A stretch of DNA of 64,000 nt from Cymodocea nodosa. Lineage: Eukaryota; Streptophyta; Magnoliopsida; Alismatales; Cymodoceaceae. Made by a program: the position numbers and the translations under genes. Below are positions 5,789 through 61,859 of this stretch, piece by piece (the stretch's first letter is position 1; each line of letters starts with the position of its first letter). The notes beneath the pieces were generated by a model that was not told where the DNA came from, searched no databases, and worked only from the letters and a program-made list of their open reading frames with translations. The stretch spans positions 6,262,001-6,326,000 of the forward strand of contig JAZBRI010000011.1 in assembly GCA_036874045.1 (NCBI GenBank), given 5' to 3'.

Positions 5789-5870
5789 GACTTGAGGACA
5801 ACATATAATTGGTACACTTTTCCTATTTACACTTTTGTTGCACTTCATATTACTTTAGTTATTTGTTACA

Positions 5871-15158: not shown

Positions 15159-16298
15159 ATGGAATTGATGCAATTACCGTTGGATGCACTAAGGGAAGTA
15201 CTGAGTAACTTGTCAGCTAAAGATCTGTGCAGGTTGTGTTGTGTATCAAAGGAAATTAAAGACTGTATTGAAGAAAAATATTTTTAGGGACTACAAGCTG
15301 CAAAAATGACTAAGATTAGAGATGGATTCATATGGAGGTCATTTAATCGTAGTTCAAATACCCATGAATATCTGTCTATGGAAGAAACTACTGGAATTCC
15401 ACCTAATACATTAGAAGGAATAAATCATATTATGGGGATAGATGAAGGATTAATCATATACAGGACGAGACCAAGGTATGCAAGTTTATTATTACCTGAT
15501 ATTTTGATAAGAAATCCTATAACAAGAGAAGAATGGAATATAGGAAGACCTAATAGATTTGAAGTACCAACTGTAAATTGTGGATCGGCTTTAATATTTT
15601 CTGATAAAAATTCTGCAATTCCTGAAAAATTATATTATTGGAGACCTATAGGAAATTGGAGTGAAGATTTACGCTTAAGTGTATATAATTTTCTGAATAG
15701 ATCTTGGAATGAAAATATTATGATATATCTAGGACAAAAATCATTAATTAACCAAACACATGTCGTACTTGATGGATATATATATCTTGTCACAGATATT
15801 TCAATTGCATTTGGATCTGATTTATACATAGTGAGCATAGATAGTTATGATGAATATATAGAAATTTTACCTATACCGAGTGATATAGCTAAACCACCAT
15901 CTACAGAATTTAATAAAATTCAAATAGGAATGTGGTATAATGAAGAAGATGATCCTACTTTATGTCTGATAAGATGGTGGGATGAACTGATGAAATTTCA
16001 AATATGGATTATGGAAGACATAAATGAATGGAAGTGGGAAGAGGAATATATTAAAATAGATGTAGAAATAGAAACTTCTACATTACCCTGGAACCAAAAA
16101 TGATCCCTTTCTACATTTCATATCATTAATGGTAATACACTTGTATTTGGAATTTATAATATATTGCACATTTACAAATTAAGAAGGAACAAGAACTGCA
16201 TGAAAATAGAATTAATAGCAAGAAGAACTATGCCTAAAAAGTTTGCTTGGATTGATACATTTATTCCATTTGTTCCTAATTTTCAATCATGTTCTTAA
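15159..16298 (+). pseudogene. B1 F-box protein ORF carried by the retrotransposon, two stops
   Basis: Starting at ATG 15159, the first 45 residues form an F-box: 'LPLDALREVLSNL' then 'DLCRLCCVSKEIKD'. F-box proteins bind SKP1 and bring substrates to SCF ubiquitin ligases. The remaining 330 residues resemble the substrate-side region of plant F-box proteins only in general layout ('PDILIRNPITREEWNIGRPN' like 'LWNPSTRE'). It is otherwise undefined. The total is 379 codons in one frame, with TAG replacing a Gln codon after 'EKYF' (about 15285) and GGA to TGA at 16101. The ORF lies between gag and the polypurine tracts, a place shared by B2, B3 and B4, so it belongs to the element rather than to a host locus. 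Confidence 0.8.
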
Positions 16299-18070: not shown

Positions 18071-19622
18071 TGTTTAGAATGAAAAAGTGCATATTATTAA
18101 TGGCTAAATGATGGTTAATTACATAATATTTAGCTTATCATATAAGAATTAAGCCATTATGTTATAATTGCATCGTTATATGCTTTAATTAGAATTATTG
18201 CTTAATTTTGGGGAATTAATGTCAATTTAGTACATTTTTGAACTATCGATAAGTTGCAGGCTATGAAATTCTTAAGTATCCGAATTTTCTGATATTTTAG
18301 ATAGTTATGTTTAACAGACCGAACATGCCGGATAGTTATGTTTAAATTACCGAACAGTTATGTTTTGAAAGAATATTTTATTATTTCCTAAAATACACGT
18401 GTCAAAACCATAATGCATGACTTAAGTGAACTTTCGGTGAGTTATCTCTAACTATCCGAAATTGCAGTTGAGCATCGAACAGTTATATGTGTAACCCTCT
18501 AAAATCTCTTTTTATTTATAAAATGGTTGACACGTGTCATGTTCTAGTAAAGTGACTTAAGTGGACTTTCGGTGAGTTACCTGTAACTATCCGAAATGCA
18601 TCTGAGCATTAGATAATTAAGTTTGTAAGTATCCAAAATTGCACCTAAGCATCGAATAGTTAAATTTATGCACGTGTTTTATTGTTAAATCAACGAAGAA
18701 AGTCCATTTAGTTATCTGTAACTCCACAGACTATTTATTTTCTAATATGCCATTGTAGCGATTGTAGAAACAGGAAAGTTGGAAGAAAAACCACGATTGC
18801 ATGTATTGCGCAGGGAGAAGAAATCATCGCCGTTGATATGAATGAAGGAAATCCAATCGATCATTCAAGTAGAAGAAGTTACTACTGAAGAAATATAAAA
18901 GAAAAGAAGAAAAAGAAGTACAGTATACGTGGTTGATTGTTGGACGGCCAATGTGTATAGAGGAGGAACACCGTGCTTTCTACAAGCAGTATCGGCAATT
19001 CTCCAAAGTACCACACCAACCATCGTTACCACCACCACCACCATAATCACCAACCATCGGAGGTCTGTGAGAATATTTTCTTGATGTCGGGTCGATTCCA
19101 AGCAAAACACGGTGCCTAACAACCGCTGTGAGGAATGATCGCATCACAAGAAGGGAAGCCATTTTCACCAAGCGCCAACTCATATTTCAGGAGATCGTAA
19201 AGCTTCTAGCCTTGACTTCGGGTTGATGCTTGTATGCTGAAGAGGAGATTATCTTGCAATTCTGGACTCACAATTCTATAGGGAGAGGAGACAAGATTGT
19301 AAGTGGTTTAATTTTCAGTGGTGTAATCGCATCGTATGTAGTGACGGAAGTATTTACTATTGATTAAGATTACTTTACATTTCACCTTTCTCCCATTTCC
19401 ATGTTCATATTAAACCAAAAATACCAAAAATAACTTATTTGCTATTGTATGTTGTATTGTTTGTGTTGTATAGTGATTAATGTTATCTTTGTCAGTGTTG
19501 TGATTGTTTTATGTTTGTTTTAGTTTTACAGTTTACTAAAATTGGTTCGTTCAAAAGACTTAAAGATTTTAATGGTTACTGTTTGAATTATCTGAATGTT
19601 AGTATTGCTTAATGATAAATCC
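18071..19622 (+). repeat. B1 3' LTR, truncated after about 1.55 kb
   Basis: It starts tgtttagaatg after the polypurine tract. It carries two CACGTG-GACTTAAG-hairpin modules (from 18396 and near 18530), a TATAAAAG box at 18894-18901, and an antisense ORF common to these LTRs. At about 19622 it switches to the reverse complement of the first 360 bases of the same LTR (the B2 stub), so its last 0.6 kb is missing. Confidence 0.82.
18894..18901 (+). promoter_or_regulatory. LTR TATA box (B1)
   Basis: The sequence tataaaag sits within 'gaagaaatataaaagaaaag'. It is conserved at the same place in the LTRs of B2 (51712-51719, minus), B3 (30110-30117 and 37434-37441) and B5 (60633-60640). In B4 it is mutated (55972-55979). 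It is the likely core promoter of family B. Confidence 0.6.
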
Positions 19623-19982
19623 ACCAAAAGTTCACTTAAGTCATGCATTATGGTTTCGACACGTGTACTTCAGGAAATAATAAAATATTCTTTTAAAACA
19701 TAACTGTTAGGTACATTAAACATAATTGTCCTGTACGTTAAATATAACTGTCCGAAATAACAAAAAATTCAAATACTCAAGAATTTCACAGCCTACAATT
19801 TACTGACAGTTCAAAAATGCACTAAATTAACATTAATTCCCCGAAATTAAGCAGATTCTTTCATTAAAGCATATAACAGTGCAATTATAACAAAATAGCT
19901 TAATTCTCATATGATAAGCTAAATATTATGCAATTTAACCATCATATAACCGTTAATATTATGCACTTTTTCATTCTAAACA
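19623..19982 (-). repeat. B2 3' LTR stub (first 360 bases of the LTR)
   Basis: The reverse complement begins tgtttagaatg and matches the start of all family B LTRs. It stops at the head-to-head joint with the B1 LTR, with only a 2-3 base overlap at the joint. Confidence 0.82.
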
Positions 19983-29156: not shown

Positions 29157-30466
29157 TGTTTAGAATGAAAAAGTGCATAATATTAACGGTTAAATAATGG
29201 TGAATTGCATAATATTTAGCTTATCATATAAGAATTAAGCCATTATGTTATAATTGCACTGTTATATGCTTTAATGAAAGAATCTGCATAAGTCTAGGGA
29301 ATTAATGTTAATTTAGTACATTTTTGAACTATCCGAAATTGTAGTTGAGCATCGGATAGTTATATGTGTAACTCTCTGAAATCTCCTTTTATTTATAAAA
29401 TAGCTGTGGACACGTGTCATGTTCTGGGAAAGTGACTTAAGTGGATTTTCAGTGAGTTATCTATAACTATCTGAAATGCATCTGACATCGGATAGTTAGA
29501 CCTGTAACTCTCCGTAATGTTTCTTTTATTACTGCTAACAAGTGTCGAGAATTGGTAGATTTACTTAAGTTATATATCGGTGAGTTATTTGTAACTATCC
29601 GAAATACATCTGGGCATCGGATAGTTAAGTTTGTAACTATCCGAAATGCATCTGGGCATCGGATAGTTAAGTTTGTAATTATCCGAAATGCATCTGGGCA
29701 TCAGATAGTTAAGTTTGTAACTATCCAAAATGCATCTGAGCATCGAATAGTTAAGTTTGTAATTATCCGAAATGCATCTTGTCATCGGATAGTTAAGTTT
29801 GTAACTATCTGAAATGCATCTAGGCATCAGATAGTTAAGTTGTAAGTATCTAAAATGCATCTGAGCATCAGATAGTTAAATTTATGTAAGTGTTTTATAG
29901 TTAAATCAATGAAGTAAGTCTGTTGAGTTATCTGTAACTCCACGGACTATTTATTTTCTAATATGCCACTATAGCGGTTGCAGAAACATGACAATTGGAA
30001 GAAAAACCACGATCGCACGTATCGCGCAGGGAGAAGAAAGCATCGTCGTTGATATGAATGAAGGAAATCCAACCGACCATTCAAGAAGAAGTAGTTACCA
30101 CTGAAGAAATATAAAAGAAAAGAAGTAAAAGAAGTAAAGGTGTGTGATCGATGGGTATGGCCAGTGTGTACAGAGGAAGAGTACCGAGCTTTCTGTAGGT
30201 AGCGTCGGCAATTCTCTGAAGTACCACACCAACCATCATTACCACCACCATAACCACTATAATCACCAACCATCGGAGGTCTGTGAGAATACTTTCCTAA
30301 TGTCGGGTCGATTCCAAGCCAAACACAGTGCATGACAACCACTGTGAGGAGTGATCGTGTCGCGAGAAGGGAAGCCATTTTTACCAAGTGCCAACTCATA
30401 TCTCAGGAGATCGTAAAACTTCTAGCCTTGGCTTCGGGTTGATGCCTGTATGCTGAAGAGGAGAAG
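29157..30466 (+). repeat. B3 5' LTR, truncated at the deletion joint
   Basis: It starts tgtttagaatg and contains the TATA box at 30110-30117. It runs into ORF2 at 30461-30468, where 'agaggagaagga' of the LTR overlaps with 'agagaagaagga' of ORF2. This short homology suggests illegitimate recombination. Confidence 0.85.
29607..29882 (+). repeat. 42-bp tandem repeat array in B3 5' LTR (seven units)
   Basis: Units start at 29607, 29649, 29691, 29733, 29775, 29817 and 29858. Each contains 'catcggatagttaag' and 'gtaactatccgaaatg', which can pair as a stem. Other family B LTRs have one to three units here. Confidence 0.9.
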
Positions 30467-31071
30467 GACAATTAATTTCCAATGTGGAGGAAGCTAATGT
30501 ACAGATAACACCAGAGCTTCTCCATAACATTTTTGGATTGAAGAATGAAGGAAAAGAAATTTTGGAAAGCATAACGACTGTTGAATGGACAGAGCAGGAA
30601 ATCAAGAACAGTTTGGCTATCAATCCTAGTATGCCATTGTTAAATAGACTAAAGCATTTAAATGGTAAAGCACACATGATAGCTAACATTTTGATTAAAA
30701 ATGTCCACCAACGACAAGGCCAAGACATTGAACTAAGTCAATTTGTCAAGTGGGCCACTTATGTAGTTGTGAATAGAATTCAAGTTAATTGGTGTCAAGT
30801 CTTCCTATCCAAAATGAAGTCTGCAAAGAAGAAATTATTTTTTGGAGATTTGATACCTATATTGATGGTAGACTGTATTGATTTTGTGAAATGGACATCC
30901 AGAAGGATAAGATCAAGAACCATTTCAGTGAAAGAATACAGAAATTATGCAGCTGCTGAAGTATCTATACCTTCTGGAGGAATTATTGGAGCTGTAGAGA
31001 GGATAAACCAATTAGAGCAGCAATTAGAAAAACTCTAGAAGGAAGTAGATGAACTTAGGAATAAAGGCTAA
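30467..31071 (+). pseudogene. B3 ORF2, C-terminal part only
   Basis: It begins in mid-ORF at the deletion joint and is open to 31038: 'NVEEANVQITPELLHNIF', 'MPLLNRLKHLNGKAHM', 'QFVKWATYVVVNRIQVNW', 'KKKLFFGDLIPILM', 'ISVKEYRNYAAAE', then the coiled coil 'INQLEQQLEKL'. CAG to TAG at 31036 cuts off the last dozen residues, which end at 31071. This is the cleanest view of the C-terminal ORF2 domain in the window. It looks globular and mostly helical, with no catalytic motif that I recognise. Confidence 0.75.
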
Positions 31072-32038: not shown

Positions 32039-33341
32039 ATGAGCACATGGACTCGTTCTCTTAGCACTAAACGATTAGTAAGAATACCTACCCAGGAATA
32101 TTCAACACAGAGGCATACTGAAACATTTTCTAAACTAGACTTTAACGAAATCCTTAGGGGTGTAGCTAACCTTTCTTTAAAAGAGAATGTAGAGATGGCT
32201 ACTCTAGTAGAAAAACCATTAGGAGAAATTTTGTACCCTGAATTAGTTGATGAACCTTCATGTATTCGATTGCCAAACTTTGAGGAAGATAGGTTTGAAC
32301 TGAAATCTAATTATATTAGTCAATTGCCACATTTTCATGGATTAGAAAGAGAGGATGCCTATTATTTCCTTAAAGAATTTAATGAAGTTTGTCAAATGAT
32401 GAAAATGCTGAACATGAGTATAGATGCTATTAAACTTAGATATATCCCTTTTGCTTTAAAAGACACAGCTAAGAGATGGTTATATACTCTGTCACCTGAT
32501 TCAATTTTTGCATGAACTAAATTTTGCTCTGTTTTTCTGGAAAAATATTATCCAACACATTAAACAATTAAAAAGAAAAAAGAAATATTAATGTGTAGCC
32601 AAAAATAAGGTGAATCATTCTGGAAATATTTTGAAAGATTTAAAGATTTACTGACTCAATGTCCACATCATGCAATGAGTAAAGCACAATTAATAGGTAT
32701 AATTTATGAAGGCATAGATGTTTCAATGAAATCTTTATTAGAATCTACTTGTCAAAATGGATTTCTAAAACTATGTAGTGAAGAAGCATGGCCATATTTA
32801 GAAAACTTTGAAAAAAGAACTGCATAGTGGGAAAACTCGACTGAAGCTATTGCATATAAAAGAATATTGCCAAGAGGAATGCATGAAATAGATTCAAGTA
32901 CTATGCTTGAAGTGAAATTAACTGAATTAACAAAGAAAATAGAAGAGTTATCATTAAATCAAAAGCTAGTAGAAAAAAATGCAAACATTAATGATCTAGA
33001 TATTATTTATGCTAGAAACCAGAAAGATAACTTTGGAAATTTTTATAATCCTAATTAGATAAATCACTCGAATTTATCTTAGAGAAACAACAATTTCTAG
33101 GGAGGAGAAAATATAAATGAAAAGAATATAAGTTATGAAGCATTACTTGAACAAGGATCTAGAATAGAGAAATTAAAAAAGATAATCCAACAATTAAACA
33201 ATCATCTAGATTTTGTATTTGGAAATACTGCAATTCAAAATCAAAATAGAAATTGGAGGATTGTCAATGCAAGCAGTACATAACCCTGTCAATAGAGCTG
33301 TTAATGAAATTGATACCTCTTCTAGGAGGATAGCTGAATGA
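32039..33341 (+). pseudogene. gag: B3 gag (capsid), broken
   Basis: It starts at ATG 32039 (MSTWTRSLSTKRLVR), giving the best gag N-terminus in the window, with 158 open codons through 'IKLRYIPFALKDTAKRWLYT'. Stops then follow: TGA near 32514, and several TAA/TAG around 32560-32830. A further open stretch (32867-33058) carries the coiled coil and 'FGNFYNPN'. It ends at 33341, where the frame is also disturbed by a deletion near 33250. There is no zinc knuckle, as in the other family B gags. It could not yield a full capsid protein, in contrast to the intact F-box ORF directly downstream. Confidence 0.85.
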
Positions 33342-33548: not shown

Positions 33549-34685
33549 ATGGAATTGATACAATTACTACTGGACGCACTAAAGGAAGTACTAAATAACT
33601 TGTCAGCTAAAGATCTGTGTAGGCTGTGTTGTGTATCAAAGGAAATTAAAGATTGTGTTAGAGAAAAATATTTTCAGAGACTACAAGTTGCAAAAATTAC
33701 TAAGATTAGAGATGGATTCATATGGAAGTCATTTAATCGTAGTTCAATTAGCCATGAATATCTGAATATGGAAGAAACTACTGGAATTCCACCCAATACA
33801 TTAGAAGGAATAGATCATATTATGGGGATGGATGAAGGATTAATTATACATAGGACCAAACCAAGGTATGCAATTCTATTACCTGATATTTTGATCAGAA
33901 ATCTTATCACAAAAGAAGAATGGAATATAGGAAGACCTAATAGATATGCAGTACCAACTGAAAATTGTGGGTCGGCTTTAATATTTTCTGATAAAAACTC
34001 GACCATTCCTGAAAAATTATATTATTGGAGACCTATAGGAAATTGGGATGAAGATTTATGCTTGAGTGTGTATAATTTTCTAAATAGATCTTGGACTGAA
34101 AACACTATGATATATCTGGGACAAAAATCATTAATTAACAGCATGCATATCATACTTGATGAATATATATATCTAGTCACAGATATATCAATTGCATTTA
34201 GATCTGATTTATACATAGTAAGCATAAATAGTTATGATGAATACATAGAAATTTTGCCTATACCGAGAAAAATAGCTAAACCACCATCTGTAGAATTTGA
34301 TAAAATTCAAATAGGGATGTGGTATAATGAATATGATGATCCTACTTTATGTCTGATAAGATGGTGGGATGAGTTGATGAAATTTCAAATATGGATTATG
34401 AAAGACATAAATGAATGGAAGTGGGAAGAGGAATATATTGAAATAGATGTAGAAATAGAAACTGCTACATTATCCTGGAACCGAAAAGGATCTCTTTCTG
34501 CATTTCATTTCATTAATGGTAATACACTTGTATTTAGCAATGATAATATACTACAAGTTTACAAATTAAGAAGGAACACGAGCTGCATTAAAACAGAATT
34601 AATAGCAAGAAGAATTATGCCTAAAAAGTTTACTTGGACTAACACGTTTATTCTATTTGTTTCTACTTTTCAATCATGTTCTTAA
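33549..34685 (+). CDS. F-box protein carried by retrotransposon B3, intact (378 aa)
   Basis: An F-box protein would bind SKP1 and act as the substrate receptor of an SCF ubiquitin ligase in the nucleus or cytosol. Residues 1-45 form the F-box: 'LLLDALKEVLNNL', 'DLCRLCCVSKEIKD'. The rest ('GFIWKSFNRSS', 'LPDILIRNLITKEEWNIGRP', 'LYYWRPIGNWDEDL', 'LCLIRWWDELMKFQIWIMKD', 'WNRKGSLSAFHFINGN') recalls the repeat-like substrate region of plant F-box proteins but matches no subtype I can name. The start at 33549 is used because it aligns with B1 and B2; the frame is open upstream to 33456, but that part is hairpin spacer. It is the only long undamaged ORF in family B here. The first Pro of the F-box is Leu (LLLD instead of LPLD). 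Whether it is expressed is unknown. Confidence 0.78.
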   Translation: MELIQLLLDALKEVLNNLSAKDLCRLCCVSKEIKDCVREKYFQRLQVAKITKIRDGFIWKSFNRSSISHEYLNMEETTGIPPNTLEGIDHIMGMDEGLIIHRTKPRYAILLPDILIRNLITKEEWNIGRPNRYAVPTENCGSALIFSDKNSTIPEKLYYWRPIGNWDEDLCLSVYNFLNRSWTENTMIYLGQKSLINSMHIILDEYIYLVTDISIAFRSDLYIVSINSYDEYIEILPIPRKIAKPPSVEFDKIQIGMWYNEYDDPTLCLIRWWDELMKFQIWIMKDINEWKWEEEYIEIDVEIETATLSWNRKGSLSAFHFINGNTLVFSNDNILQVYKLRRNTSCIKTELIARRIMPKKFTWTNTFILFVSTFQSCS

Positions 34686-36414: not shown

Positions 36415-38654
36415 TGTTTAGAATGAAAAATGGCATAATATTAATGGTTAAATGATGGTTAATTGCATAATATTTAGCTTATCATATGAGAATTAAGCCA
36501 TTATGTTATAATTGCACTATTATATGCTTTAATGAAAGAATCTGCATAAGTCCAGGGAATTAATGTTAATTTAGTACATTTCTGAACTGTCGGTAAACTG
36601 TAGGCTGTGAAATTTTAAGTATCTGAATTTTCTGTTATTTCGAACAGTTACATTTAACGTACCGAACATGTACCGGACAGTTATGTTTAAATTGCCGAAC
36701 AATTATGTTTTAAAAGAATATTTTATTATTTCCTGAAGTACACGTGTCGAAACCATAATGCATGACTTAAGTAGACTTTTGGTGAGTTATCTCTAAGTAT
36801 CCGAAATTGCAACTAGGCATTGGATAGTTATATGTGTAACTCTCCGAAATCTCCTTTTATTATAAAACTGCTGATGACACATGTCATGTTCTGGAAGAAT
36901 GACTTAAGTGGATTTTCGGTGAGTTATCTCTAACTATCCGAAATGCATCTGGGCATCGGATAGTTAGACTTAACTCTCCGAAATATTTCTTTATTATAAA
37001 ACTACTGATGACACGTGTCGTGATCTGGAAGATTGACTTAAGTAATATATCGGTGAGTTATCTGTAACTATTCGAAATGCATCTGAGCATCGGATAGTTA
37101 AGTCTGTAACTATCCGAAATGCATCTGAGCATTGGATAATTAAGTTTGTAAGTATCTAAAATGAACCTGAGCATCGGATAGTTAAATTTATGCACGTGTT
37201 TTATAGTTAAATCAACGAAGCAAGTTTGTTAAGTTATCTGTAACTCCATGGACCATTTAATTTCTAATATGCCACTATAGCAGTTGCAGGAATAGAACAG
37301 TTGGAAGGAAAAACAACGATTGCACGTATTACGTAGGAATTCACTCGTCGAAGGGAGAAGAAATCATCGTCGTTGATATGAATGAAGGAAATCCAACCGA
37401 TCATTCAAGTAGAAGCAGTTACCACTGAAGAAATATAAAAGAAAAGAAGAAAAAAGAAGTAAAGGTGTGCGATCGATGGGTGTGGCCAGTGTGTGCAAAG
37501 AAGGATCAGCGTCGGCAATTCTCTGAAGTATCACACCAACCATCATCACCACCACCATAATTACCAACCATCAGAGGTCTGTGAGGATACTTTCCTGATG
37601 TCGGGTCGATTTCGAGCCAAACACAGTGCTTGACAACCATTGTGAGGAGTGATCGCGTCACGGGAAAGGAAGCTATTTTCACCAAGCGCCGACTCATATC
37701 TCAAGAGATTGTAAAGCTTCTAGCCTTGGCTTCGGGTTGATGCCTATATGCTGAAGAGGAGATTATCTTGCAATTCTGGACTCGCGATTCTATAGGGAGA
37801 GGAGATAGAATTGTAAGTGGTTTAATTTTCAGTGGTGTAATCGCGTTGCATGTAGTGACGGAAGTATTTACTGTCGACTGAGATTACTTCACATTTCACC
37901 TTTTGCCTATTTCGATGCTCATATCAAAACAAAAATACCAAAAATAACTTATCTGTGTTTATATTTTGTGTTTGAGTGTTGTATTGTTTGTTTTGTATCG
38001 TGATTAATGTTATCTTTGTCAGTGTTGTGATTGTTTTATGTTTGTTTTAGTTTTACAGTTTACTGAAATTGGTTCGTTCAAAAGACTTAAAAATTTTAAT
38101 GGTTATTATTTGAATTATCTGAATGTTAGTATTGCCTAATGATAAATCCAATGTTTACTAACATTAAAGAGCTTAATTGATGTTATTTACAATCAGTGGA
38201 ACCACCCAATGGTTGGCCAAATTCCTTTGTAAATAACGGTATTAAATAGGAAAGACAGGCTCGTGGAGTTAACTTAAGTCCACGAGGTTAGTCCGTTGAG
38301 TTAGCCATAACTCAATGAACTTAGTCCGTTGAGTTAATTGTAACTCAATGGAGAGCTTATTGAATATATAAATTTGATTGTTAAAAATGAAACAGTTCGC
38401 AATTCTTAAGCAATTTCCTATGGGATCAACCTATACTTGCACACTAATACAATAGACACTGTGCACTTGCAGTTAAAATACAAATTGGAATTAATATCTA
38501 ATTTGTGTGAAAGGTTGTTTGTTTACTTCTAAAAAGGAATAGGCATAAAGATAAATTAACTAAGTAAAAACAGAAGTTAACAAATCCAAGTTTTTCTGGC
38601 GCCATTGCTAGGGAACCAATCAAGTTTTCTGGTGCCGTGTTGGAGATCCAAACA
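36415..38654 (+). repeat. B3 3' LTR, complete (2240 bp)
   Basis: It starts tgtttagaatg and ends gatccaaaca, with the target duplication directly after. Three modules start at 36741, 36878 and 37012; in each, GACTTAAG follows the CACGTG (or CACATG) start by exactly 23 bases. The TATA box is at 37434-37441. Near the end lie two degenerate primer-site-like motifs (38597-38614 and 38630-38646) that are inside the LTR by the duplication evidence. Confidence 0.88.
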
Positions 38655-39283: not shown

Positions 39284-40420
39284 TTAAGAACATGATTGAA
39301 AAGTAGAAACAAATGGAATAAACGTGTCAATCCAAGCAAACTTTTTAGGCATAATTCTTCTTGCTATTAATTCTATTTTAATGCAGTTCGTGTTCCTTCT
39401 TAATTTGTAAACTTGCAATATATTATCAATGCTAAATACAAGTGTATTAGCATTAATGAAATGAAATGCAGAAAGGGATCCTTTCCGATTCCAGGATAAT
39501 GTAGCAGTTTCTATTTCTACATCTATTTCAATATATTCATCTTCCCACTTCCATTCATTTATGTCTTTCATGATCCATATTTGAGATTTCATCAACTCAT
39601 CCCACCATCTTATCAAACATAAAGTAGGATCATCATATTCATTATACCACATTCCTATTTGAATTTTATCAAATTCTGTAGATGGTGGTTTAGCTATTTC
39701 TCTCGGTATAGGCAAAATTTCTATATATTCATCATAATTATCTATGCTTATTATGTATAAATCAGATCTAAATGCAACTGATATATCTATGACTAGATAT
39801 ATATATCCATCAAGTATGACATGCATGCTGTTAATTAATGATTTCTGTCCTAGATATATCATAGTGTTTTCAGTCCAAGATCTATTTAGAAAATTATACA
39901 CACTCAAGCATAAATCTTCATCCCAATTTCCTGTAGGTCTCCAATAATATAATTTTTCAGGAATGGTCGAATTTTTATCAAAAAATATTAAAGCCGACCC
40001 ACAATTTTTAGTTGGTACTTCATATCTATTAGGTCTTCCTATATTCCATTCTTCTCTTGTGATAGGATTTCTGATCAAAATATCAGGTAATAGAATTGCA
40101 TACCTTGGTTTGGTCCTGTATATAATTAATCATTCATCCATCCCCATAATATGATCTATTCCTTCTAATGTATTGGGTGGAATTCCAGTAGTTTCTTCCA
40201 TATTCAAATATTCATAGCTAATTGAACTACAATTAAATGACTTCCATATGAATCCATCTCTAATCTTAGTCATTTTTGTAGCTTGTAGTCCCTAAAAATA
40301 TTTTTCTCTAACACAATCTTTAATTTCCTTTGATACACAACACAATCTGCACAGATATTTAGTTGACAAGTTACTTAGTACTTCCCTTAGTGCATTTAGC
40401 GGTAATTGCATCAATTCCAT
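39284..40420 (-). pseudogene. B2 F-box protein ORF, two stops
   Basis: The sense start is at 40420, giving 378 codons in one frame with the F-box 'LPLNALREVLSNL' and 'LCRLCCVSKEIKD'. It has the same substrate-side region as B1 and B3 ('PITREEWNIGRPNRYEV', 'WWDELMKSQIWIMKD', 'SLSAFHFINANTLVF'). Two in-frame stops occur: TAG after 'EKYF', the same site and same change as in B1, and GGA to TGA after 'MGMDE'. The last 264 codons (39284-40078) are open. Upstream lies gag, as in the other copies. The shared stop with B1 means either common descent of these two copies or recurrent decay at a methylated CAG. Confidence 0.8.
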
Positions 40421-40614: not shown

Positions 40615-41958
40615 TCATTCAGCTATCCTCCTAGAAGAGGTATCAATTTCATTAACAGTTCTATTGACAGGGTTAGGTATTGCTTGTATTGGCAATCCTC
40701 TAGTAGGTCTAACTTCATTTGATTCCTTCTGTCTAAGCGATATGTTTCTATTCTGATTTTGAATTGTAGCATTTCCAAATACAAGATCTAGACGATTTTT
40801 AATTGTTGGATTATCTTTTCTAATTTCTCTATTCTAGATCCTTGTTCAATTAATGCTTCATAACTTATATTCTTCTCATTTACATTTTCTCCTCCCTGGA
40901 AATTATTGTTTCTCCAAGATAAATTCAGGTAATTTGTCCAATTAGGATTATACGAATTTCCAAAGTTATCTTTCTGGTTTCTAGCATAAATAATATCTAG
41001 ATCATTAATGTTTGCATTCTTTTCTACTAGCTTTTGATTTAATGCTAACTCTTCTATTTTCTTTGTTAATTCAGTTAATTTCACTTCAAGCATAGTGCTT
41101 GAAGCTATTTCACGCATTACTCTTGGCAATATTCTTTTATCTACAATAACTTCAATCGAGTTTTCCCACTATGCAGTTCTTTTTGCAAAGTTTTCTAAAT
41201 ATGGCCATGCTTCTTCACTACATAGTTTCAGAAATCCATTTTGACAAGTAGATTCTAATAAAGATTTCATTGAAACATCTACGCCTTCATAAATTATACT
41301 TATTAATTGTGCTTTACTCATTGCATGATGTGGACATTGAGTCAGTAAATCTTTAAATCTTTCAAAATATTTCCAGAATGATTCACCCTATTTTTGACTA
41401 CACATTAATATTTCTTTTTTCTTTTTAATCATTTGATATGTTGAATAATATTTTTCTAGAAAAATAGAGCAAAATTTAATCCATGCAGAAATTGAATCAG
41501 GCAATAGAGTATATAACCATCTCTTAGTTGTGTCTTTTAAAGCAAAAGGGATATATCTAAGTTTAATAGCATCTATACTCATGTTCGGCATTTTCATCAT
41601 TTGACAAACTTCGTTAAATTCTCTAAGGAAATAATAGGCATCCTCTCTTTCTAATCCATGAAAATGTGGCAATTGACTAATATAATTAGATTTCAGTTAA
41701 AACGTATCTCCCTCAAAGTTTGGCAATCGAGTACATGAAGGTTCATCAACTAATTCAGGGTACAGAATTTCTCCTAATGGTTTTTGTACTGGAGCAGCCA
41801 TATATACGTTCTGTTTTAAAGAAAGGTTAGCTACACCCCAAAGGATTTCGTTAAAGTCTAGTTCAAAAAATGTTTCAATACGCCTCTGTGTTGAATATTC
41901 CTAGGTAGGTGTTCTTACTAATTGCTTAGTGCTAAGAGAACGAGTCCATGTGCCTCAT
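40615..41958 (-). pseudogene. gag: B2 gag (capsid), broken
   Basis: The sense start is at 41958, but an extra G in the fifth codon shifts the frame at once. Open pieces are 41388-41672 ('PHFHGLEREDAYYFLREFNE', 'YIPFALKDTTKRWLYTL') and 40788-41129 (the coiled coil 'LTELTKKIEELALNQ' and the 'SYNPNW.N..NLSWRNN' segment). TAG and TAA codons interrupt it near 41170 and 41390. As in B1 and B3 there is no zinc knuckle, and the gene sits between ORF2 and the F-box ORF. The protein would be the particle-forming capsid. Confidence 0.85.
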
Positions 41959-42929: not shown

Positions 42930-45139
42930 TTAGCCTCTATTCCTAAGTTCATCTACTTCCTTCTGGAGTTTTTCTAATTGTTGCTGTAATTGTTCTATCC
43001 TTTCTACAGCTCCAATAATGCCTCTAGAAGGTATAGATGCCTCAGCTGCAGCATAATTTCTGTATTCTTTCACTAAAATGGTTATTGATCTTATCCTTTT
43101 GGATGTCCATTTCGTGAAATGAACACAGTCTATCGTCAATATAGGTATCAAATCTCCATAAAATAGTTTCTTGTTTGCAAACTTCATCTTGGATAGGAAG
43201 ACTTGACACCAATTAACTTGAATTCTTTTCACAATTGCATAAGTGGCCCATTTGACAAATTGACTTAGTTCAATATCATGGCCTTGTCATTGGTAGACAT
43301 TTTTAATCAAGATATTAGCTATCATGTGTGCTTTACCATTTAAATGCTTCAGTCTATTTAATAATGGCACACTAGGATTGATAGCCAAACTGTCCTTGAT
43401 TTCCTGCTCTGTCCATTCAATGACAGTTGTGCTTTCCAAAATTTCTTTTCCTTCATTCTTCAATCCAAGAATGTTGTGGAGAAGCCTGGTGTTATCTGTA
43501 TATCAGCTTCCTCCACGTTGGAAATTAATTGTCCTTCTTCTCTTAAATTAGCATAGAAGCAGGGCACTAGATTTTCATGTATTGCATGCCCTTTCTGTTG
43601 AGAAATAATTTGTAGTAGACCTTGAAATTCAAATAATTCCTTAATTTCTTGCATTTCGTCCCAATTTACTAGTCTACTGTATATGATATCATAACCCCTA
43701 ATCTCTTGGTATTTATTATAAGCTTCCTAACTCCAAAAGTGTACTTCATTCAGAACTGTTGCTTCACTTGGGTTAGGAATGTGACTTTGTTGTTCTAGAG
43801 GGGTTTGTTCTTGATCTTCCTCTTCCATAAGCTAAACTTGAATTTGCTGAAAATGTTCTACAGATTCTTGAACATTTGCTTCTGCTTTTGTCTGTGGTGG
43901 TGAGTCGGCAGAACTCTCCACTCTGTCTTGAAGTTTTTCATTAAATTCAGTCGAATCTACAAAGTCATTTTTGTCCATATGGCTTTGTTCAACTTCTTGT
44001 TCATTATCTGTTCTTTCTTCTTCCTCCTGACTACCAATCTGCATTGTCACTGTTCTTTTTGACTCTTTGGCAGATTGAGATGGAGTCACAGGTAATTCAG
44101 TTTCTGCCCTAATTTCTGTTTCTTCTTCTTGTACAGGCTGTAGACTAATTTCAACCTGTTTTTCTTCTTCTTTTTGCTTTTGCTACTACTACTCCCGCTC
44201 CTCCTCAAAATCGGATAGCAAGTTTACAAAAATTGGCTCTACAGGCCTTGTTGATGTTGGTACTTCAGATTTAATCTCCTTTTGACATTCAGGCACTATC
44301 TCTTTTCCTTTCCTTTGTTTGATTAATTGTGCTTAGTCTTCCTCTTCTTCTTTTGAGATTAAATCTACAAGCAAAGGCTCTGCATGCCTATGAGCCATAG
44401 GTACTGGCTCTTCCTATTTAATTTTTTCAATATTTGCTGGTCTCGAAGGACCAGCTTTAGCTTCTCCTCTTACAGCAAATCTGATAGTGGTTCTTTGATG
44501 CTGTTCAATTTTAACTTTGTATTGGGCTTTCAATTTTTCCGTAGCCCTCCTCTTGCAAAGTACATCAAATACCAGGTGTGCTTTAGCTACTACCAAATCT
44601 TCTAGTTCTCCTTGGTTTTTCCCAACTTGAACCAGTCCTAGGAATTCTCTTAATTCCTCTTCAATCGAAGGCCCCAACATTTCTACTCGTGTCAACAGCC
44701 TGAATGGTGGAACTGAAGGTCCTAGCTACTGTTCCTTAGGAACAAGTCTTTCAGCAGTCAACTCCTCTTATTCTTCTTCTTCTTGTTGCTGCCGCCTTAT
44801 TGCACCCCTTGCACGACCAGCAATGCACTTTTTGAACCATAATCTAGCCTTGCGCTAGATTAGCTCTAGGGCTACTTCGTTGTTTGGCCTTATTTTCCTT
44901 TCTTTGCTAACAACAATTTTTGTTGCTACTTTGATTCTTGTTTCCACTATCTGGGGTATTTGTATACCCAAATCTACAAAAAATCTTCTCAAGTTGAAAA
45001 GTTCGGATTCTACCTTCTGTAGCTCTTTTTCTCTTGTCGTATTCCTGATTTTCTATCGCGTGTGCCATTCCTCTAACTGTTTTAGAAATTCTGATGTGTC
45101 AACAACATCTTCCTAGAACTCGGGCGTCATTTTCCTCAT
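42930..45139 (-). pseudogene. B2 ORF2: about 730-codon protein of unknown function, broken
   Basis: The sense start is at 45139 and the end at 42930. The N-terminal part matches B1 ('ELFNLRRFFVDLGIQIPQ', 'NNEVALELI'). The open piece 44414-44695 carries 'PSIEEELREFLGLVQVGKN' and 'KAHLVFDVLCKRRATEKLKA'. The acidic middle is at 43832-44089 ('GSQEEEERTDNEQEVEQSH'). The C-terminal part has 'ENLVPCFYANLREEGQLI', then the ITP..L/F..FL pattern, and ends with 'RIEQLQQQLEKLQKEVDELR', a leucine-zipper-like coiled coil. Stops and frameshifts are spread throughout. No signal peptide or transmembrane helix is evident, so it is unlike a retroviral envelope although it sits in the env position. Confidence 0.72.
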
Positions 45140-45718: not shown

Positions 45719-48700
45719 CTAATTAAAGCTCGAGTAGTCCTCTACTCTTACTTCTTCTATAATTCCAAAGGAGCTTTTTAGTATTTTCAAAATAGGTCTA
45801 AGTCTTTGTCCATTTACTTTAAAGATATTCTGATTTTTAGGATTTTCAATCTCAATAGCTCCATAGGGATAAATATTTCAAACTATGTAAGGACTTGCCC
45901 ATCTAGATCTTAATTTTCCTGAATGGTTATGGAGTCTAGCCATGTAAAGATATAGTTCTTGTCCTATTTCAAAGCTTTTTGGAATAATTTTCCTACCATG
46001 CCAGAATTTCATTTTCTCTTTTTCTCTTACAGTCTTTGAATAAGCTTCATTTCTAAATTCTTCTAATTCAATTAATTACCTTTTCATATTTTCAACAACT
46101 TAATTTAAATTAGTGTTCGGAGTTTTTAATGCCCAATAAGCTTTATGTTCTATTTCAGCTGGTAAATGACAACTTTTTCCATATACTAGCCTAAAAGGTG
46201 GCATACCTAAGCTTGTTTTATAAGCAGTTCTATAAGCCCAAAGTGCATCTATCAATCTATTAGCCCAATCTGTTCTAGTAGGATTTACTATTTTTCTAAG
46301 ATTAACTTAATTTGTTTGTTAGCACTTTCTACTTGTCCACTTGTTTACGGATGATATGATGTTGCAATTTTGTGGTTTACTCCATATTTCTTCATTAAGG
46401 CTTCAAAACTTCTATTATAGAAATGAGTTCCTCTATCACTCATAATAGCTTTAGGTATTCTAAATCTAGCAAATATATTGGTTCTTATAAATTGTATTAC
46501 CACTTTGTTGTCATTAGTTTTTGTAAGAATAACTTCTATCTATTTAGATACATAATCCACCCCCAACAATATGTAATTAAATTGATTAGACATAGGAAAT
46601 GGACCCATAAAATCTATCCCCACACATCAAAGATTTCAACCTCAACAATAGGATTAAGAGGCATCATATTCCTCTTTTATATTCTTCCTATTTGTTGACA
46701 TCTTAAACAACTTAAGCAATATTTATGAGCATCTTTGAATAGTGTTGGCCAATAAAACCCACATTGTAGAATTTTTGCAGTAGTTTTTCCTGAGCCAAAA
46801 TTCCCTCCACAAGCATGGTCATGACAGAAAGACAATATGCTATGATATTCAGTTTCTGGAACACATCTCCTTAAAACCAGATCAGGACATTTCTTAAATA
46901 AGTATAGGTCTTCTCAATAATAATATTTTACTCTTGAGAAAAACAATTTCTTATCTTGTCTATTCCAATCCTTAGGTGTTAAATCAATAACTAAGTAATT
47001 AACTATGTCTACATACCAAGGCATTGTATTGATGGTCATTAATTGTTCATCAGGAAAATTATCCTTAATTTCAATATTTGATTTTTCTATTTGTAATCTT
47101 GATAAATGATCTGCTACTACATTCTCACAACCTTTTTTATCTTTAATTTCTAGATCAAATTCCTGTAATAATAATATCTATCGGATCAATCTAGGCTTAA
47201 TTTTTTTTTTTGCTATTAGGTGTTTTAAAGCTGCATGATCCGTGTATACTATTACTTTAGCTCCAATCAGATATGATCTAAACTTTCCAAGGCAAACACA
47301 ATAGCTAATAGTTCTTTTTCAGTAGTTATGTAATTAACTTGAGCATCATTTAATGTTTTGCTTGCATAATGAATCACTCTAGGAGATTTTTCTATCTTCT
47401 GTCTCATCACTACTCCTACAGCAAAATCAGATGCATCACACATTAATTCAAATGGATGGCTCCAATCAGGTGCTTGAATTATAGGAGTTGAAATTAAGCT
47501 AGTTTTAAGTTTGAAAAATGCCTCCTTGCAATTTGTATCAAAGTTAAATGGGACATCTTTTAATAGATTAGTTAAAGGTCTAGCTATTTTGTTAAAGTCT
47601 TTAATAAATCTTCTATAAAAACCAGCATGTCCAAGAAATGATCTAATATTTTTACTGATTTAGGTTCTGGTAGATTAGAAATTACTTCTATTTTAGCTTT
47701 ATCTACTTCCAACCCTTTCTTAGAAACAACATACCCTAAGACTATTCCTTGTTTAACCATGAAGTGACATTTTTCCAAATCTAGAACCAAATTTTTTTCC
47801 ACACAGCGTTTTAATATTTGGTCTAAATTTTTTAAATAAACTTCATATGAGTTGTCATAAACAGTAAAATCATCCATAAATATTTCTAAGAAATCTTCAG
47901 TCATTCTAGTAAATATGCCCTATATATACCTTTGAAAGGTGGCTAGTGCATTGCATAATCCGAATGGCATTCTCTTAAAAGCATAAGTTCCATTAGGACA
48001 GGTGAAAGTTGTTTTCTCTTGATCCTCTAATACTACTGGAATTTGATTACAACCTAAATACCCCTCTAGGAAACAAAAATATTCTTGCCCTACTAATCTT
48101 TCCAGCATTTGATCTATAAAAGGTAAGGGAAAATGATCTTTCCTAGTCACAACATTCAGCTTTCTATAGTCTATACATACTCTCTAGCCTGATTGAATTC
48201 TAGTAGGTATCAATTCTTGACTTTCATTCCTAATAACTGTTAATCCTGATTTCTTGGGAACTACATGGATTGGGCTAACCCACGAGCTATCAGAAATCAG
48301 ATAAATTATGTCATTATCTAACCATTTCACTATTTCTTTCCTGACTACTTCTTTAAAGTTTGGATTTAATCTCCTCTCAGAAATTCTAACAGGTTTAGCA
48401 TTCTCTTCTAAATATATGTGGTGACAGCATAAAGTTGAACTTAACCCTTTTATATCAGTCATAGTCCATCCTATTGCTTCTTTATAACTTTTCACTACAT
48501 CTTTTAATTTAGCTATTTGATCCTCTTTTAAATCTGAAACAATAATGATTGGACATGTTTATTTCTCTTCCAGAAATATATAGGTTAATTCAGGAGGTAA
48601 ATGTTTTAATTCTAAATGTTGTCCATTAGAAGCTAGAGCTCCTAATTGAACATCATCATTTTCTAAATTAATTTCTTCCAGATCTCCTTCTATATTTATG

Positions 48701-49457
48701 CTTTCACTTTCCTCTAAAGTTTCCGAATCGATTTGCCTATTTAATTCTTCTTGAATCACATCATCTAACATATCTCCTTCATCCTCTAAAAAGTCTATAG
48801 TATGTAAGGACATTTCTAACTCCTCAAACCTTTCTAGTTTGAAAATATTTAATTGAGTATCCTCATTACCATATGCTAACTTCATTACTCCAGTTTTACA
48901 ATTTATAACAACCCCTCATGTTGCTAAAAATGGCCTTCCCAAAATTAAAGATGTATCACTATTTTTATGCTTAATTTGTTGGGAATCCAAAATTACAATA
49001 TCAATAGGATATATAAAGTTTTTGATTTTAATTAAGACATCCTCTATTTTTCCTCTTGGGTATCTTATACTTCTATCAGCTAATTGAATAACCGTACTAG
49101 TAGGAGTTAAGCCTTTTAATCTTAAGGATGCAAATATATCACTTGGCATAACATTTATATCTGCACCTAAGTCTATTAAGGTTCTTTCTAGAATGGTATT
49201 TCCTATGGTGCATGATATAACAAGGATTCCAGGATCAGATAACTTTTTAGGAATTTGTGGCAGAAATAGGAAACTACTTTGCTCAACTAAAAGACCTTTC
49301 TAAGAACTTTTTGCTCTCTTTTCTTAGTACATCAATCCTTCAGAAATTTAGCACAATGTGGCATTTTCTACAATAGATCTAACAAAGGAATGTTAACTTG
49401 CACTTTTTCAAAAATTTCTCTGATTTTTTCTTATTTTCCAGGTATTGTTTGTTGTAA
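45719..49457 (-). pseudogene. pol: B2 pol: protease, RT, RNase H, integrase (broken)
   Basis: On the sense strand protease is near 49190-48916 ('LIDLGADINVMPSDIF', 'QLADRSIRYPRGKIEDVLI', 'LILGRPFLAT'). An acidic linker follows (48885-48559). RT has 'WVSPIHVVPKKSGLT', '[20 protein letters not shown]' and catalytic 'FMDD' at about 47880-47869. RNase H has 'CDASDFAVGVVM' and '[14 protein letters not shown]' (about 47450-47200). Integrase has an HHCC zinc site near 46830-46695 (ending CLSCLRC), 'GIDFMGPF' near 46600, 'SDRGTHFYNRSFEAL' near 46430, and a C-terminal domain ending at a stop at 45719. DLGA in place of DTGA is normal for Athila-type elements. Frameshifts and TAG/TGA codons are frequent, so it is inactive. 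Confidence 0.88.
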
Positions 49458-50384
49458 TCATTCAAGATAGGGTGCTAAAGATTGTGATTTAAAAGATTCT
49501 TTTTCTTTCATTTCATTTGTTTGATCATTTTTAGCCTCATTAGCAGATTCAGATTGTTCTTCAGTGATTTCTAGATTTTCAACTATTACATTTTCATTAT
49601 CATTTTGATTTTTACTCTTATCCACCTTCATATTATTTTCATTTTGAGTTCTTGGTGGTATATCAGTTCCAGATCTTAATGTTACACATGCATCTTCCAG
49701 ATTTTCGTTACTCTCATGATGTTTTTGTATATCATTTTCGTGATTATGATCTTCAATTGTTTTTAGTTTTAAAGTGCATTCTTTAAATTCTCTTGCATTA
49801 GTATTTTCTTTTGGCTGTATATTTTGCAAATTATGTAGATCTATAACATTATAATTTTCATTGTCCTATTGCATAACTTGTATTTTCATTATATATTCGT
49901 CCAATGCTTTTAGTTTTCTTTCCAAATCATCTAATCTCATTGCGTTCAATTTTTGATCAATTTTCATTATGATTTTTTCAGTTTCGTAAATTATATCCAT
50001 TTTAAGTTCTGAATATACTTCCTTATAGTTTAATTAGTTGACTTCTTGTTACTGACACATAAAGTATTCTAGTTTGTTCAGGTTTTTCTCTATACTACGC
50101 TCCAGTCTGTCATACGTATCCCAAACTTTAGTGTCTCTCAACATCTTACACATTCTATATTGACCATTAGTTGGGTAAACTATAAGATTCTCATACTCAG
50201 CTCTATTATATTGAGGATAATTCATTTGTTGTTCATGGGATCTAGCCATCTGCAAACATCTCAATTTCAAATAGTTAGAAATGTCGTGTCCTTCAGAATT
50301 GCAGAATTCACATATGCTAACTACAGGTTTCAGAAATCTTTGAGCATAAGCATATGCCATATTCTCAATTACAAAAGAAAACAC
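49458..50384 (-). pseudogene. B2 5' ORF: degenerate zinc knuckle and 'LRSG' linker before protease
   Basis: It starts 53 bases after the primer site; Met at 50384 or the second Met at 50360 is possible. Near the N-terminus, 'CEFCNSEGHDISNY' is a CX2CX4HX4C knuckle whose last Cys has become Tyr. A charged, helical stretch follows, then 'DACVTLRSGTDI', which in standard Athila elements closes gag. It is cut by stops near 50046 and 49868, and open again 49829-49458. It corresponds to 1287-1916 of element A. It supplies the nucleocapsid-like motif that the family B gag lacks, which suggests that the ancestral gag was split, with its N-terminal capsid part moved behind pol. Confidence 0.7.
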
Positions 50385-50462: not shown

Positions 50463-52552
50463 TGGATTGGATTCCAGCACAGTGCTAGAAAACTTGATTG
50501 GTTACCTAGCAACGCGCTAGAAAAACTTGGATTTATTAACTTCTGTTTTTACTTAGTTCATTTATCTTTATGCCTATATCACTGAATTCATTTTTAGAAG
50601 TAAACAAACAACCTTTCATACAAATTAGATATTAATTCCAATTTGTATTTTAACTGCAAGTGCATAGTGTCTATTGTATTAGTGTGCAAGTACAGGTCGA
50701 TCCCATAGGGAATTGCTTAAGAATTGTGAACTGTTCCATTTTTAACAATTAAATTTATATATTCAATAAGCTCTCCGTTGAGTTATAGTTAACTCAACGG
50801 ACTAAGTTCGTTGAGTTATGGCTAACTCAACGGACTAACCTTGTGGACTTAAGTTAACTCCACAAGCCTGTCTTTCCTATTTAATACTACTATTTACAGA
50901 GGAATTCGGCCAACCATTGGGCGGTTCCACAGATTGTAAATAACATCAATTAAGCTCTTTAATGTTAGTAAACACTGGATTTATCATTAGGCAATACTAA
51001 CATTTAGATAATTCAAACATTAACCATTAAAATCTTTAAGTCTTTTGAATGAACCAATTTCAGTAAACTGTAAAACTAAAACAAACATAAAACATTCACA
51101 ACACTAACAAAGATAACATTAATCACGATACAAAACAAACAATACAATACCCAAATACAAAATACAAACACAGATAAGTTGTTTTTGGTATTTTTGTTTT
51201 GATATGAGCATGAAAATGGGTGAAAGGTGAAATGTAAAGTAATCTCAGTTGATAGTAAATACTTCTGTCACTACATGCGACGCGATTACACCACTGAAAA
51301 TTAAACCAGTTACAATTCTGTCTCCTCACCCTATAGAATCGTGAGTCCAGAATTGCAAGATGATCTCCTCTTTAGCATATAGGCATCAACCCGAAGCCAA
51401 GGCTAGAAGCTTTACGATCTCCTAAGATATGAGTCGGCGCTTGATAAAAATGGCTTCACTTCCCACGACGTGATCACTCCTCACAGTGGTTGTCAGACAC
51501 TATGTTTGGCTTGGAATCGACCCGACATCAGGAAAGTATCCTCACAGACCTCTAATGGTTGGTGATTATGGTGGTTATGGTGGTGGTGGTGATGGTTGGT
51601 GTGGTACTTTAGAGAATTGCCGACGTTGCCTGCAGAAAGTTCGGTGATCCTCCTCTGCACACATTGGCCACACACATCGGCCACACACATTTACTTCTTT
51701 TTTCTTCTTTTCTTTTATATTTCTTCAATGGTAACTACTTATGCTTGAATGATCGGTTGGATTTCCTTCATTCATATCAACGACGATGATTTCTTCTCCC
51801 TTCGATGAGTGAATTCTTGCGTAATACGTGCGATCGTGGTTTTTCTTCCAACTGTTCTGTTCTTGCAACCGCTACAGTGGCATATTAGAAAATAAATGGT
51901 CTGTGGAGTTACAGATAACTCAACGGACTTGCTTCGTTGATTTAACTATAAAACACGTGCATAAACTTAACTATCTGATGCTCAGGTGCATTTCGGATAG
52001 TTACAAACTTAACTATCCGATGCTTAGGTACATTTCAGATAGTTAGAGATAACTCACTGAAAATCCACTTAAGTCATTCTTCTAGAACATGACACGTGTC
52101 CAACAGCTATTTTATAATAAAAGGAGATTTCGAAGAGTTACAAGTCTAACTATTTGATGCTCAACTGCAATTTCGAATAGTTAGAGATAACTCACCGAAA
52201 GTTCACTTAAGTCATGCATTATGGTTTCGACACGTGTACTTCAGGAAATAATAAAATATTCTTTTAAAACATAACTGTTTGGTACATTAAACATAACTGT
52301 CTAGTACATTAAACATAACTGTCTGAAATAACAGAAAATTCGGATACTTAAGAATTTCACAGCCTGCAATTTACCGACAGTTCAAAAATACACTAAATTA
52401 ACATTAATTCCCCGAAATTAAGTAGATTCTTTCATTAAAGCATATAACAGTGCAATTATAACAAAATGGCTTAATTCTCATATGATAAGCTAAATATTAT
52501 GCAATTTAACCATCATATAACATTAATATTATGCACTTTTTCATTCTAAACA
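50463..52552 (-). repeat. B2 5' LTR
   Basis: Its sense start tgtttagaatg is at 52552, and the TATA box is at 51719-51712. The sense end region contains two further primer-site-like motifs (near 50508 and 50480) before the true site. It is flanked on the right by the B4 F-box sequence; 'gtatg' (52553-52557) would be the target duplication, but the left partner is lost. Confidence 0.83.
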
Positions 52553-53371
52553 GTATGCAATTCTGTTACCTGACATTTTGATTAAAAATCTTATCACAAA
52601 AGAAGAATGGAATATAGGAAGGCCTAATAGATATGAAGTACCAACTGAAAATTGTGGGTCAGCTTTAATATTTTTTGATAAAAATTCGACCATTCCTGAA
52701 AAATTGTATTATTGGAGACCAATTGGAAATTGGGATGAAGATTTATGCTTAAGTGTGTATAATTTTCTGAATAGATCTTGGACCGAAAATACTATGATAT
52801 ATCTAGGATAGAAATCATTAATTAACAGCATACATGTCATACTTGATGGATATATATATCTAGTCACAGATTTATCAGTTGCATTTAGATCTGATTTATA
52901 CATAGTAAGCATAGACAGTTATGATGACTTTATAGAAATTTTGCCTATACTGAGTGATATAGCTAAACCACCATCTGCAGAATATGATCAAATTCAATTA
53001 GGAATGTGGTATAATGAATATGATGGTCCTAATTTATGTCGATAAGATGGTGGGATGAATTGATGAAATTTGAAATATGGATTATGAAAGACATAAATGA
53101 ATGGAAGTAGGAAGAGGAATATATTGAAATAGATGTAGAAATGGTAACAACTACATTATCTTAGAACAGAAAAGGATCCCTTTTTACATTTCATTTCATT
53201 AATGGTAATACACTTATATTTAGTATTGATAACATACTGCAAGTTTACAAATTAAAAAGGAAAATGAATGGCATTAAAACAAAATTAATAGCGAGAAGAA
53301 TTATGCCTAAAAAGTTTGCTTGGATTGACACGTTTATTCCATTTGTTACTACTTTTCAATCATGTTCTTAA
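52553..53371 (+). pseudogene. B4 F-box protein ORF, N-terminus lost to B2 insertion
   Basis: It starts at codon 'YAIL' just before 'LLPDILIKN', about residue 115 of the B3 protein, so the F-box itself is absent. The substrate-side region follows ('EEWNIGRPNRYEVPTENCGS', 'LYYWRPIGNWDEDLCLSVYN'). It has an in-frame TAG after 'MIYLG' (52809), further stops near 53110 and 53162, and a one-base deletion near 53040. It ends in '..QSCS' at 53371, like the other copies. It is the most decayed of the four F-box copies, as expected for the oldest host element in the nest. Confidence 0.8.
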
Positions 53372-61834: not shown

Positions 61835-61841
61835 AGTTTTG

Positions 61842-61859
61842 TGGCACCGTTGCCGGGGA
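61842..61859 (+). other. B5 primer binding site (tRNA-Asp type)
   Basis: The sequence tggcaccgttgccgggga lies seven bases after the LTR end and has one mismatch to the usual site. It is the best preserved primer site of family B here. Confidence 0.85.

Follow-up and report, generated by a model that had tools for sequence, protein, structure and literature searches.

Results

Four copies of an F-box reading frame in nested insertions

The stretch of Cymodocea nodosa DNA analyzed here (64,000 nucleotides of contig JAZBRI010000011.1, positions 6,262,001 to 6,326,000; hereafter the window) contains four copies of one F-box reading frame, and both the reading of open frames and alignment placed all four where an earlier note, made from the sequence alone, had put them. 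The copy at 33549..34685 on the plus strand (B3) is an open F-box/FBA-like frame of 378 codons; those at 15159..16298 (plus) and 39284..40420 (minus) carry two internal stops each; and at 52553..53371 (plus) only the 3' part is left, spread over two reading frames and interrupted at 52552/52553, where the 5' LTR of the minus-strand element cuts into it. In nucleotide alignment, the 33549 copy and the minus copy are 94% identical over 1251 nt, and the other pairs within the window 88-93% over 0.3-0.9 kb. A gag frame lies directly 5' of the three copies with a preserved 5' side, as had been proposed, at 13699..14851 (plus), 32111..33247 (plus) and 40800..41885 (minus), with about 300 bp between gag and F-box in each case, and the juxtaposition of an open F-box with a broken gag in B3 was likewise borne out, its gag carrying stops. 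The statement that all four copies precede a 3' region and an LTR holds directly for three of them, but not for the minus copy, which is truncated about 630 bp behind the F-box, at 38655, where the neighboring plus-strand element ends; the adjoining LTR (36415-38654) is part of that neighbor and not of the minus element.

Copy B3 resides in a mobile insertion (29157-38654) that lacks a PBS and pol and consists, in this order, of a truncated 5' LTR, a Transposase_32-like ORF, gag, the F-box, a purine tract and a 3' LTR. The truncated 5' LTR (29157..30464, plus) is fused to the Transposase_32-like ORF (putative plant transposon protein; 30463..31020, plus), which lies 5' of gag and takes its label from homologous ORFs scoring 24-30 bits, below the cutoff of 45. 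The gag frame is of the Retrotrans_gag type, with PF03732 scored on the homologous ORF of another copy (L017), and lies between putative splice sites, while the purine tract directly precedes the 3' LTR (36415..38654, plus). The flanks of the insertion, CTTTC and CCTTC, form a target-site duplication agreeing at four of five bases. A repetition in 42-base steps occupies 29530-29842 within the truncated 5' LTR, and a similar stretch is found at 37003-37189 in the 3' LTR.

Other family members lie on both sides of this insertion. Behind the 15159 F-box lies a partial 3' LTR (18071..19623, plus), and family LTR pieces at 19614-19982 and 18071-19623 are joined with opposite orientations, a sign of rearrangement between nested copies; a further Transposase_32-like ORF of the family is seen at 11954-12633. 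The minus element begins with a 5' LTR (50467..52552, inner end approximate), followed by pol (45881..49865), upstream of its own gag and F-box and made up of a gag-tail linker and protease (49865-48985), RT-RNase H (48123-47049) and integrase (47045-45881), then by a glutamate-rich ORF (44192..45098), the L017 homologue of which has no Pfam match, and a Transposase_32-like ORF (42996..43660), all on the minus strand. The fourth F-box is followed by a 3' LTR at 55166..57184 (plus, ends approximate). A further family LTR (60027..61859, plus), with a PBS-like sequence at 61842-61859, belongs to a copy from which pol, the glutamate-rich ORF and the Transposase_32-like ORF are deleted, and whose gag starts at 63440 and runs past the window end. 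A Ty1/copia-type element (20861-28871, minus), with profile matches to gag (26678-27205) and part of an integrase (24420-25766), is inserted among the nested F-box elements; its segments 20861-22396 and 27340-28871 are 94.5% identical and are probably its LTRs.

A complete element and the extent of the family

In the genome (374.6 Mb in 28 contigs), ten F-box copies outside the window were read with 10 kb per side, three of them 6 kb further upstream, and were found to have a common core between about -10 kb and +3.8 kb relative to the F-box. The complete copy (L030/L023/L024) spans about 17 kb and features a 5' LTR (-12058 to -10000), then a PBS-like sequence with GTTGCCGGGGAA at its end, pol, the glutamate-rich ORF, the Transposase_32-like ORF, gag, the F-box, a purine tract and a 3' LTR, with its two LTRs 93.2% identical. 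Target-site duplications match at four of five bases in both copies inspected and are hence imperfect. The LTRs, PBS-like sequence and purine tract, together with the position of RT-RNase H before integrase, are those of a Ty3/Gypsy element. The order pol, ORFs, gag, F-box recurs in seven of the ten flanked copies and in the minus copy of the window; two of the others (L017 and L011) have gag and, within 10 kb, no pol at its position, and L015 lacks both genes. A candidate LTR in the flank of L027 proved to be a pol repeat, and in L029 the stretch from about -15999 to -10001 contains two tandem family members with one common LTR (F-box end, LTR, next element).

The presence of four F-box copies in one window is not a chance observation, for at least 109 F-box matches with 86-100% identity were scored in the genome with a first query, and a second F-box copy used as query added 19 further loci, giving at least 128 distinct loci together. 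Among the gag matches listed, 13 of 150 had a listed F-box at the fixed distance, which might be taken to mean that many gag copies lack the F-box; this was not borne out in the five sampled from the other 137, at ranks 2, 30, 60, 90 and 120, all of which had F-box DNA at the fixed distance (best F-box match 92-96%, one of the five being frame-shifted in the stretch read). An F-box without gag was seen in one of the ten flanked copies (L015). A capture-recapture estimate (150 x 128 / 13), which assumes that the two lists are independent, places the family at roughly 1,480 members, of the order of 1,500 copies. The site is fixed, in the order gag, F-box, purine tract and LTR, in nearly all copies examined. 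The proposal that the F-box is a regular component of a Ty3/Gypsy family is hence upheld, both by the at least 128 loci and by the five of five sampled gag copies.

The F-box protein

Profile searches support the assignment of the reading frame to the F-box proteins. PF00646 matches the 33549 ORF with 31.1 bits and all eight of the other open copies scanned with 29-43 bits, against a cutoff of 20.5, in agreement with the F-box motifs previously proposed for the N-terminus, but the motif string quoted for them is that of the 15159 copy and not of the 33549 copy. The F-box-associated profile TIGR01640 reaches 18.8-33.2 bits in the four copies tested, in all of them below its cutoff of 37.9, with E values from 8e-4 to 3.3e-8, the best over residues 113-334 of copy L040, and PF07734 (FBA_1) reaches 13.5-15.4 bits, against a cutoff of 21.1, in four of eight copies, the other four having no match. 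The suggestion of a captured host F-box gene is therefore consistent with the host-type F-box/FBA appearance of the protein, but the TIGR01640 part of that likeness is weak. At the cutoffs used (1530 and 2846 candidates), no homologous proteins were found in a database of 5.8 billion sequences that includes plant proteins; because a generic F-box similarity of about 30 bits is not significant among so many sequences, the search shows only that close relatives of this ORF were not seen there. Searches of solved structures returned one match at E 2.3 in one search and none in a second, and Rfam and tRNA searches returned no match.

Relative order of pol and gag

The first 10 kb of the window hold a related element without F-box, whose 5' LTR (-1160 to 92) lies partly outside the window and is followed by a PBS-like sequence (98-115). 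Its pol (1239..5593, plus), in several frames, comprises a zinc knuckle, protease, RT, RNase H and integrase, and its gag (5859..7229, plus; PF03732 with 73.6 bits on 6117-6908) lies downstream of this pol and ahead of a 3' LTR (8496..9748, plus) that is 93.4% identical to the 5' LTR. In protease, RT and integrase, 57-65% of residues are common to this element and the F-box family. By eye, zinc-knuckle-like motifs (CX2CX4HX4C) can be made out in the related element both in 1239-1913, near the pol start, and in 6099-6905, near the gag end, as would be expected had gag and pol been separated within the tail of gag.

The location of gag downstream of pol, which the earlier note had missed, is established in several families. 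Among the matches listed for the related families (77 pol and 145 gag), all 54 pol-gag pairs within 6 kb, involving 53 distinct pol matches, have gag downstream and on the same strand by position, and none has it upstream or on the opposite strand. For the F-box family, gag is downstream in all 11 integrase-gag pairs within 9 kb among the matches listed (150 of each), and gag queries found no match between PBS and protease, gag lying behind the integrase. The possibility that the upstream pol belongs to another element was rejected on the basis of the coverage of the shared core, the positions of LTRs and PBS, and the order counts. No description of a pol-before-gag order was found in the open-access literature searched, subscription journals being mostly outside that search.

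Splice-site-like sequences around gag

In 15 of 17 alignable copies, the F-box ATG is preceded at 9 nt by a run rich in pyrimidines that ends in ACAG or ATAG; in the other two, which include the 33549 copy, the AG of this putative 3' splice site is lost. In L015, the copy without gag, which has an open F-box (L037), the sequence preceding gag runs into the F-box precisely at this AG; judged by eye, the junction slides by one base only. The piece missing from L015 starts with GTATGT in 11 of the 13 copies compared. The 3' splice site had been noted from the alignment before the L015 junction was seen, and the gag-less, putatively spliced form occurs in one of the 18 copies read on their 5' side. 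The copy at 60027 was also considered as a spliced form and rejected, since its two deletion junctions are not GT-AG.

Constraint on the F-box during propagation

Selection was analyzed on 50 F-box copies from the match list of the first query, including the three full-length copies of the window and 13 open copies, which are all the open ones of that list. The aligned copies are 90-99% identical and, having been drawn from the best protein matches, under-represent frame-shifted ones. Variants were grouped according to how many copies have them in common, with mutation-type-specific expectations as the reference. In the true frame, omega falls from 0.99 for variants in one copy to 0.89 for those in 2-5 copies, 0.42 for those in at least 6 and 0.26 for those in at least 10 of the 50 copies (Fisher test, singletons against at least 6 copies, P = 2.7e-5), against 0.92, 1.14, 0.73 and 0.72 in wrong frame 1 and 1.38, 0.96, 0.93 and 1.57 in wrong frame 2. 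Codon bootstrapping of the class of at least 6 copies gives 0.30-0.57 in the true frame, as compared with 0.73 (0.51-1.07) in frame 1 and 0.93 (0.66-1.34) in frame 2; as frame 1 dips too, mutational hot spots that were hit repeatedly may account for part of the drop in this class. With C>T and G>A removed, the four values are 0.88, 0.60, 0.28 and 0.41, the last class consisting of 17 variants (Fisher test, P = 4e-4). The 37 stop-bearing copies alone yield 1.00, 0.93, 0.38 and 0.22 for variants in 1, 2-4, at least 5 and at least 8 copies, versus 0.94, 1.18, 0.65 and 0.85 and 1.52, 0.78, 1.14 and 1.61 in the wrong frames. Plain pairwise dN/dS is uninformative here, as a control frame gives the same value (0.43 in the true frame, 0.42 in frame 1 and 0.57 in frame 2).

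For variants in at least 3 copies, omega is 0.43 in the F-box (18 copies), 0.47 in gag (16 copies), 0.36 in the Transposase_32-like ORF (12 copies), and 0.33 and 0.43 in RT-RNase H and integrase (8 copies; 16 and 8 variants), as compared with 0.71, 0.74 and 1.21 in the three frames of the noncoding 3' region. Among variants dating from propagation, selection against amino-acid change was thus about equally strong in the F-box, gag and pol. Little constraint is seen, for the same class of variants, in the C-terminal part of gag (0.85) and in the glutamate-rich ORF (0.73), and the Transposase_32-like ORF is as strongly constrained as pol despite its sub-cutoff Pfam score. The F-box copies form a star-like tree: terminal branches account for 90% of its length, and support reaches 0.9 or more at 9 of 47 nodes. 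On this weakly supported tree the three commonest stops inspected (codons 43, 97 and 192) are scattered and form no clades, as expected of recurrent deamination, and a broken F-box as founder of a subfamily was rejected on the same grounds. Across 17 copies, F-box divergence correlates with that of the gag side (r = 0.73, P = 0.0002) and of the 3' side (r = 0.61, P = 0.003), and this co-divergence with both flanks argues for a single capture.

Discussion

A probably captured F-box gene and its possible target

Taken together, these results make it likely that a Ty3/Gypsy family took up a host F-box/FBA gene behind gag and has maintained it as a working accessory gene. In the proposed model, a large Ty3/Gypsy-type element would have captured the gene behind gag, and the F-box protein would be made from a spliced RNA in which gag acts as an intron, a step that one copy supports. 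By analogy with its protein family, the product would serve as an SCF substrate adaptor, its F-box binding host SKP1/ASK and its FBA-like part bringing a substrate to the SCF ubiquitin ligase. The most likely target, put forward tentatively and by comparison with polerovirus P0, may be part of host silencing or of a different restriction step, and control of the element's own Gag ranks next. That second option, in which the F-box would act on the element's own products, for instance through a Gag turnover that sets copy number or timing, appears less probable. It draws on the location of gag directly 5' of the F-box in nine of the ten flanked copies, on the co-divergence of the F-box with the gag side, and on splicing, through which an RNA would serve either gag or the F-box; position, however, says little about targets, and the related element, which lacks an F-box, likewise has gag behind pol and some 20 close gag relatives. 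The full combination, an element ordered pol, ORFs, gag and F-box that splices out gag and deploys an F-box/FBA protein as an SCF adaptor against silencing, would be a retrotransposon counterpart of P0, a possibility that we regard as rather speculative.

The evidence for splicing, which the earlier note had missed, comes from L015, a copy with the look of a reverse-transcribed spliced RNA that supports gag as a putative intron of the F-box message. An accidental deletion is an improbable source of this exact loss of gag. In its favor, a single such copy has been seen, and the two other family deletions, in the copy at 60027, have no GT-AG ends; against it, in L015 both ends fall on splice-site-like sequences conserved in other copies, the 3' one of which had been noted beforehand.

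The model also requires that the F-box was of use to the element, and here the age of the variants is informative. The earlier note had proposed that a dN/dS near 1 would mark a passenger; variants dating from propagation are instead constrained (0.42 and 0.26), while private ones are neutral, which we read as copies decaying neutrally after insertion and the F-box being maintained while the elements were spreading. It is very unlikely that the captured gene simply rode along without function. The neutrality of variants private to one copy and the stops in 96 of the 109 copies listed, which leave 13 stop-free, would suit a passenger, but shared variants are constrained in the true frame as they are in gag, RT and integrase, and the ATG is kept in 47 of the 50 copies. 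About as improbable is a selection signal borrowed from selected host F-box genes, through several captures or gene conversion; plants do have large F-box families, but 50 copies that are 90-99% identical, in a star-like tree and co-diverging with gag and the 3' region, are as expected for one capture. That nested or tandem elements, in which this region is rich, mimic a pol-before-gag order is likewise very improbable, given that both families have members with 5' LTR, PBS, pol, gag and 3' LTR, that gag is downstream in 54 of 54 related pairs (53 of the 77 listed pol matches) and 11 of 11 F-box-family pairs, and that gag queries matched nothing between PBS and protease.

Relation to known elements and F-box proteins

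In canonical plant Ty3/Gypsy elements gag comes first. From its RT, RNase H, integrase and gag type, we take the present family to be Athila/OTA-like; it further resembles that group in its extra ORFs, its long non-coding parts and a PBS presumably of the tRNA-Asp type, and differs from it in having gag behind pol and an F-box ORF behind gag. The canonical Athila order, gag followed by protease-RT-RNase H-integrase, was absent from seven of the ten flanked copies, from the minus copy of the window and from the related element, the remaining three flanked copies having no pol in place within 10 kb. According to one account, most OTA (Ogre-Tat-Athila) elements carry extra ORFs and GAG heads the list of domains, and its main text contains neither "F-box" nor "order of" (PMC6317226). 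No description of an F-box in LTR retrotransposons was found in the titles and abstract starts of the literature searched.

F-box proteins encoded by other parasitic genomes offer precedents. Some polerovirus P0 proteins target AGO1 and bind SKP1, and autophagy contributes to the loss of AGO1, according to PMC6593998; P0 is likewise an F-box-like protein of a parasitic genome, but it belongs to an RNA virus and acts on silencing, a role that is hypothetical for the element's protein. The nanovirus protein Clink, as described in PMC3588083, is an F-box protein that binds SKP1 and pRB and acts on the cell cycle via an LxCxE motif. As a viral F-box accessory protein it offers a cell-cycle alternative for the target. 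On the host side, the F-box protein FBW2 regulates AGO1 (PMC2914764), and P0 and FBW2 together show that F-box proteins can act on AGO1. With the plant F-box/FBA proteins (TIGR01640, FBA_1) the element protein has in common an N-terminal F-box and an FBA-like C-terminus, the latter under the curated cutoffs, and unlike them it is encoded by a multicopy, element-borne gene.

Maize Bs1 is reportedly a case of host-gene capture by an LTR retrotransposon, and to our knowledge such captures are mostly few-copy passengers. The present family is similar in carrying a host-type gene between its LTRs, and differs in its at least 128 loci and in the measurable constraint during spread. Retroviruses reach 3' accessory genes by splicing out upstream genes, and the F-box would be a 3' accessory gene reached by putative splicing in the same manner, except that here gag itself, placed behind pol, would be the intron.

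Implications

Captured genes are usually taken for passengers; here, a host-type regulator present throughout a large family was under selection comparable to that on gag and pol while the elements multiplied. This suggests that the element makes use of the host protein-disposal machinery, and a single protein now allows one to test whether counter-defence genes occur in plant retrotransposons. Should the pol-before-gag order hold in other species as well, it raises the question of how Gag, encoded downstream, can outnumber Pol, and removal of gag by splicing would suggest a control of expression much like that of complex retroviruses.
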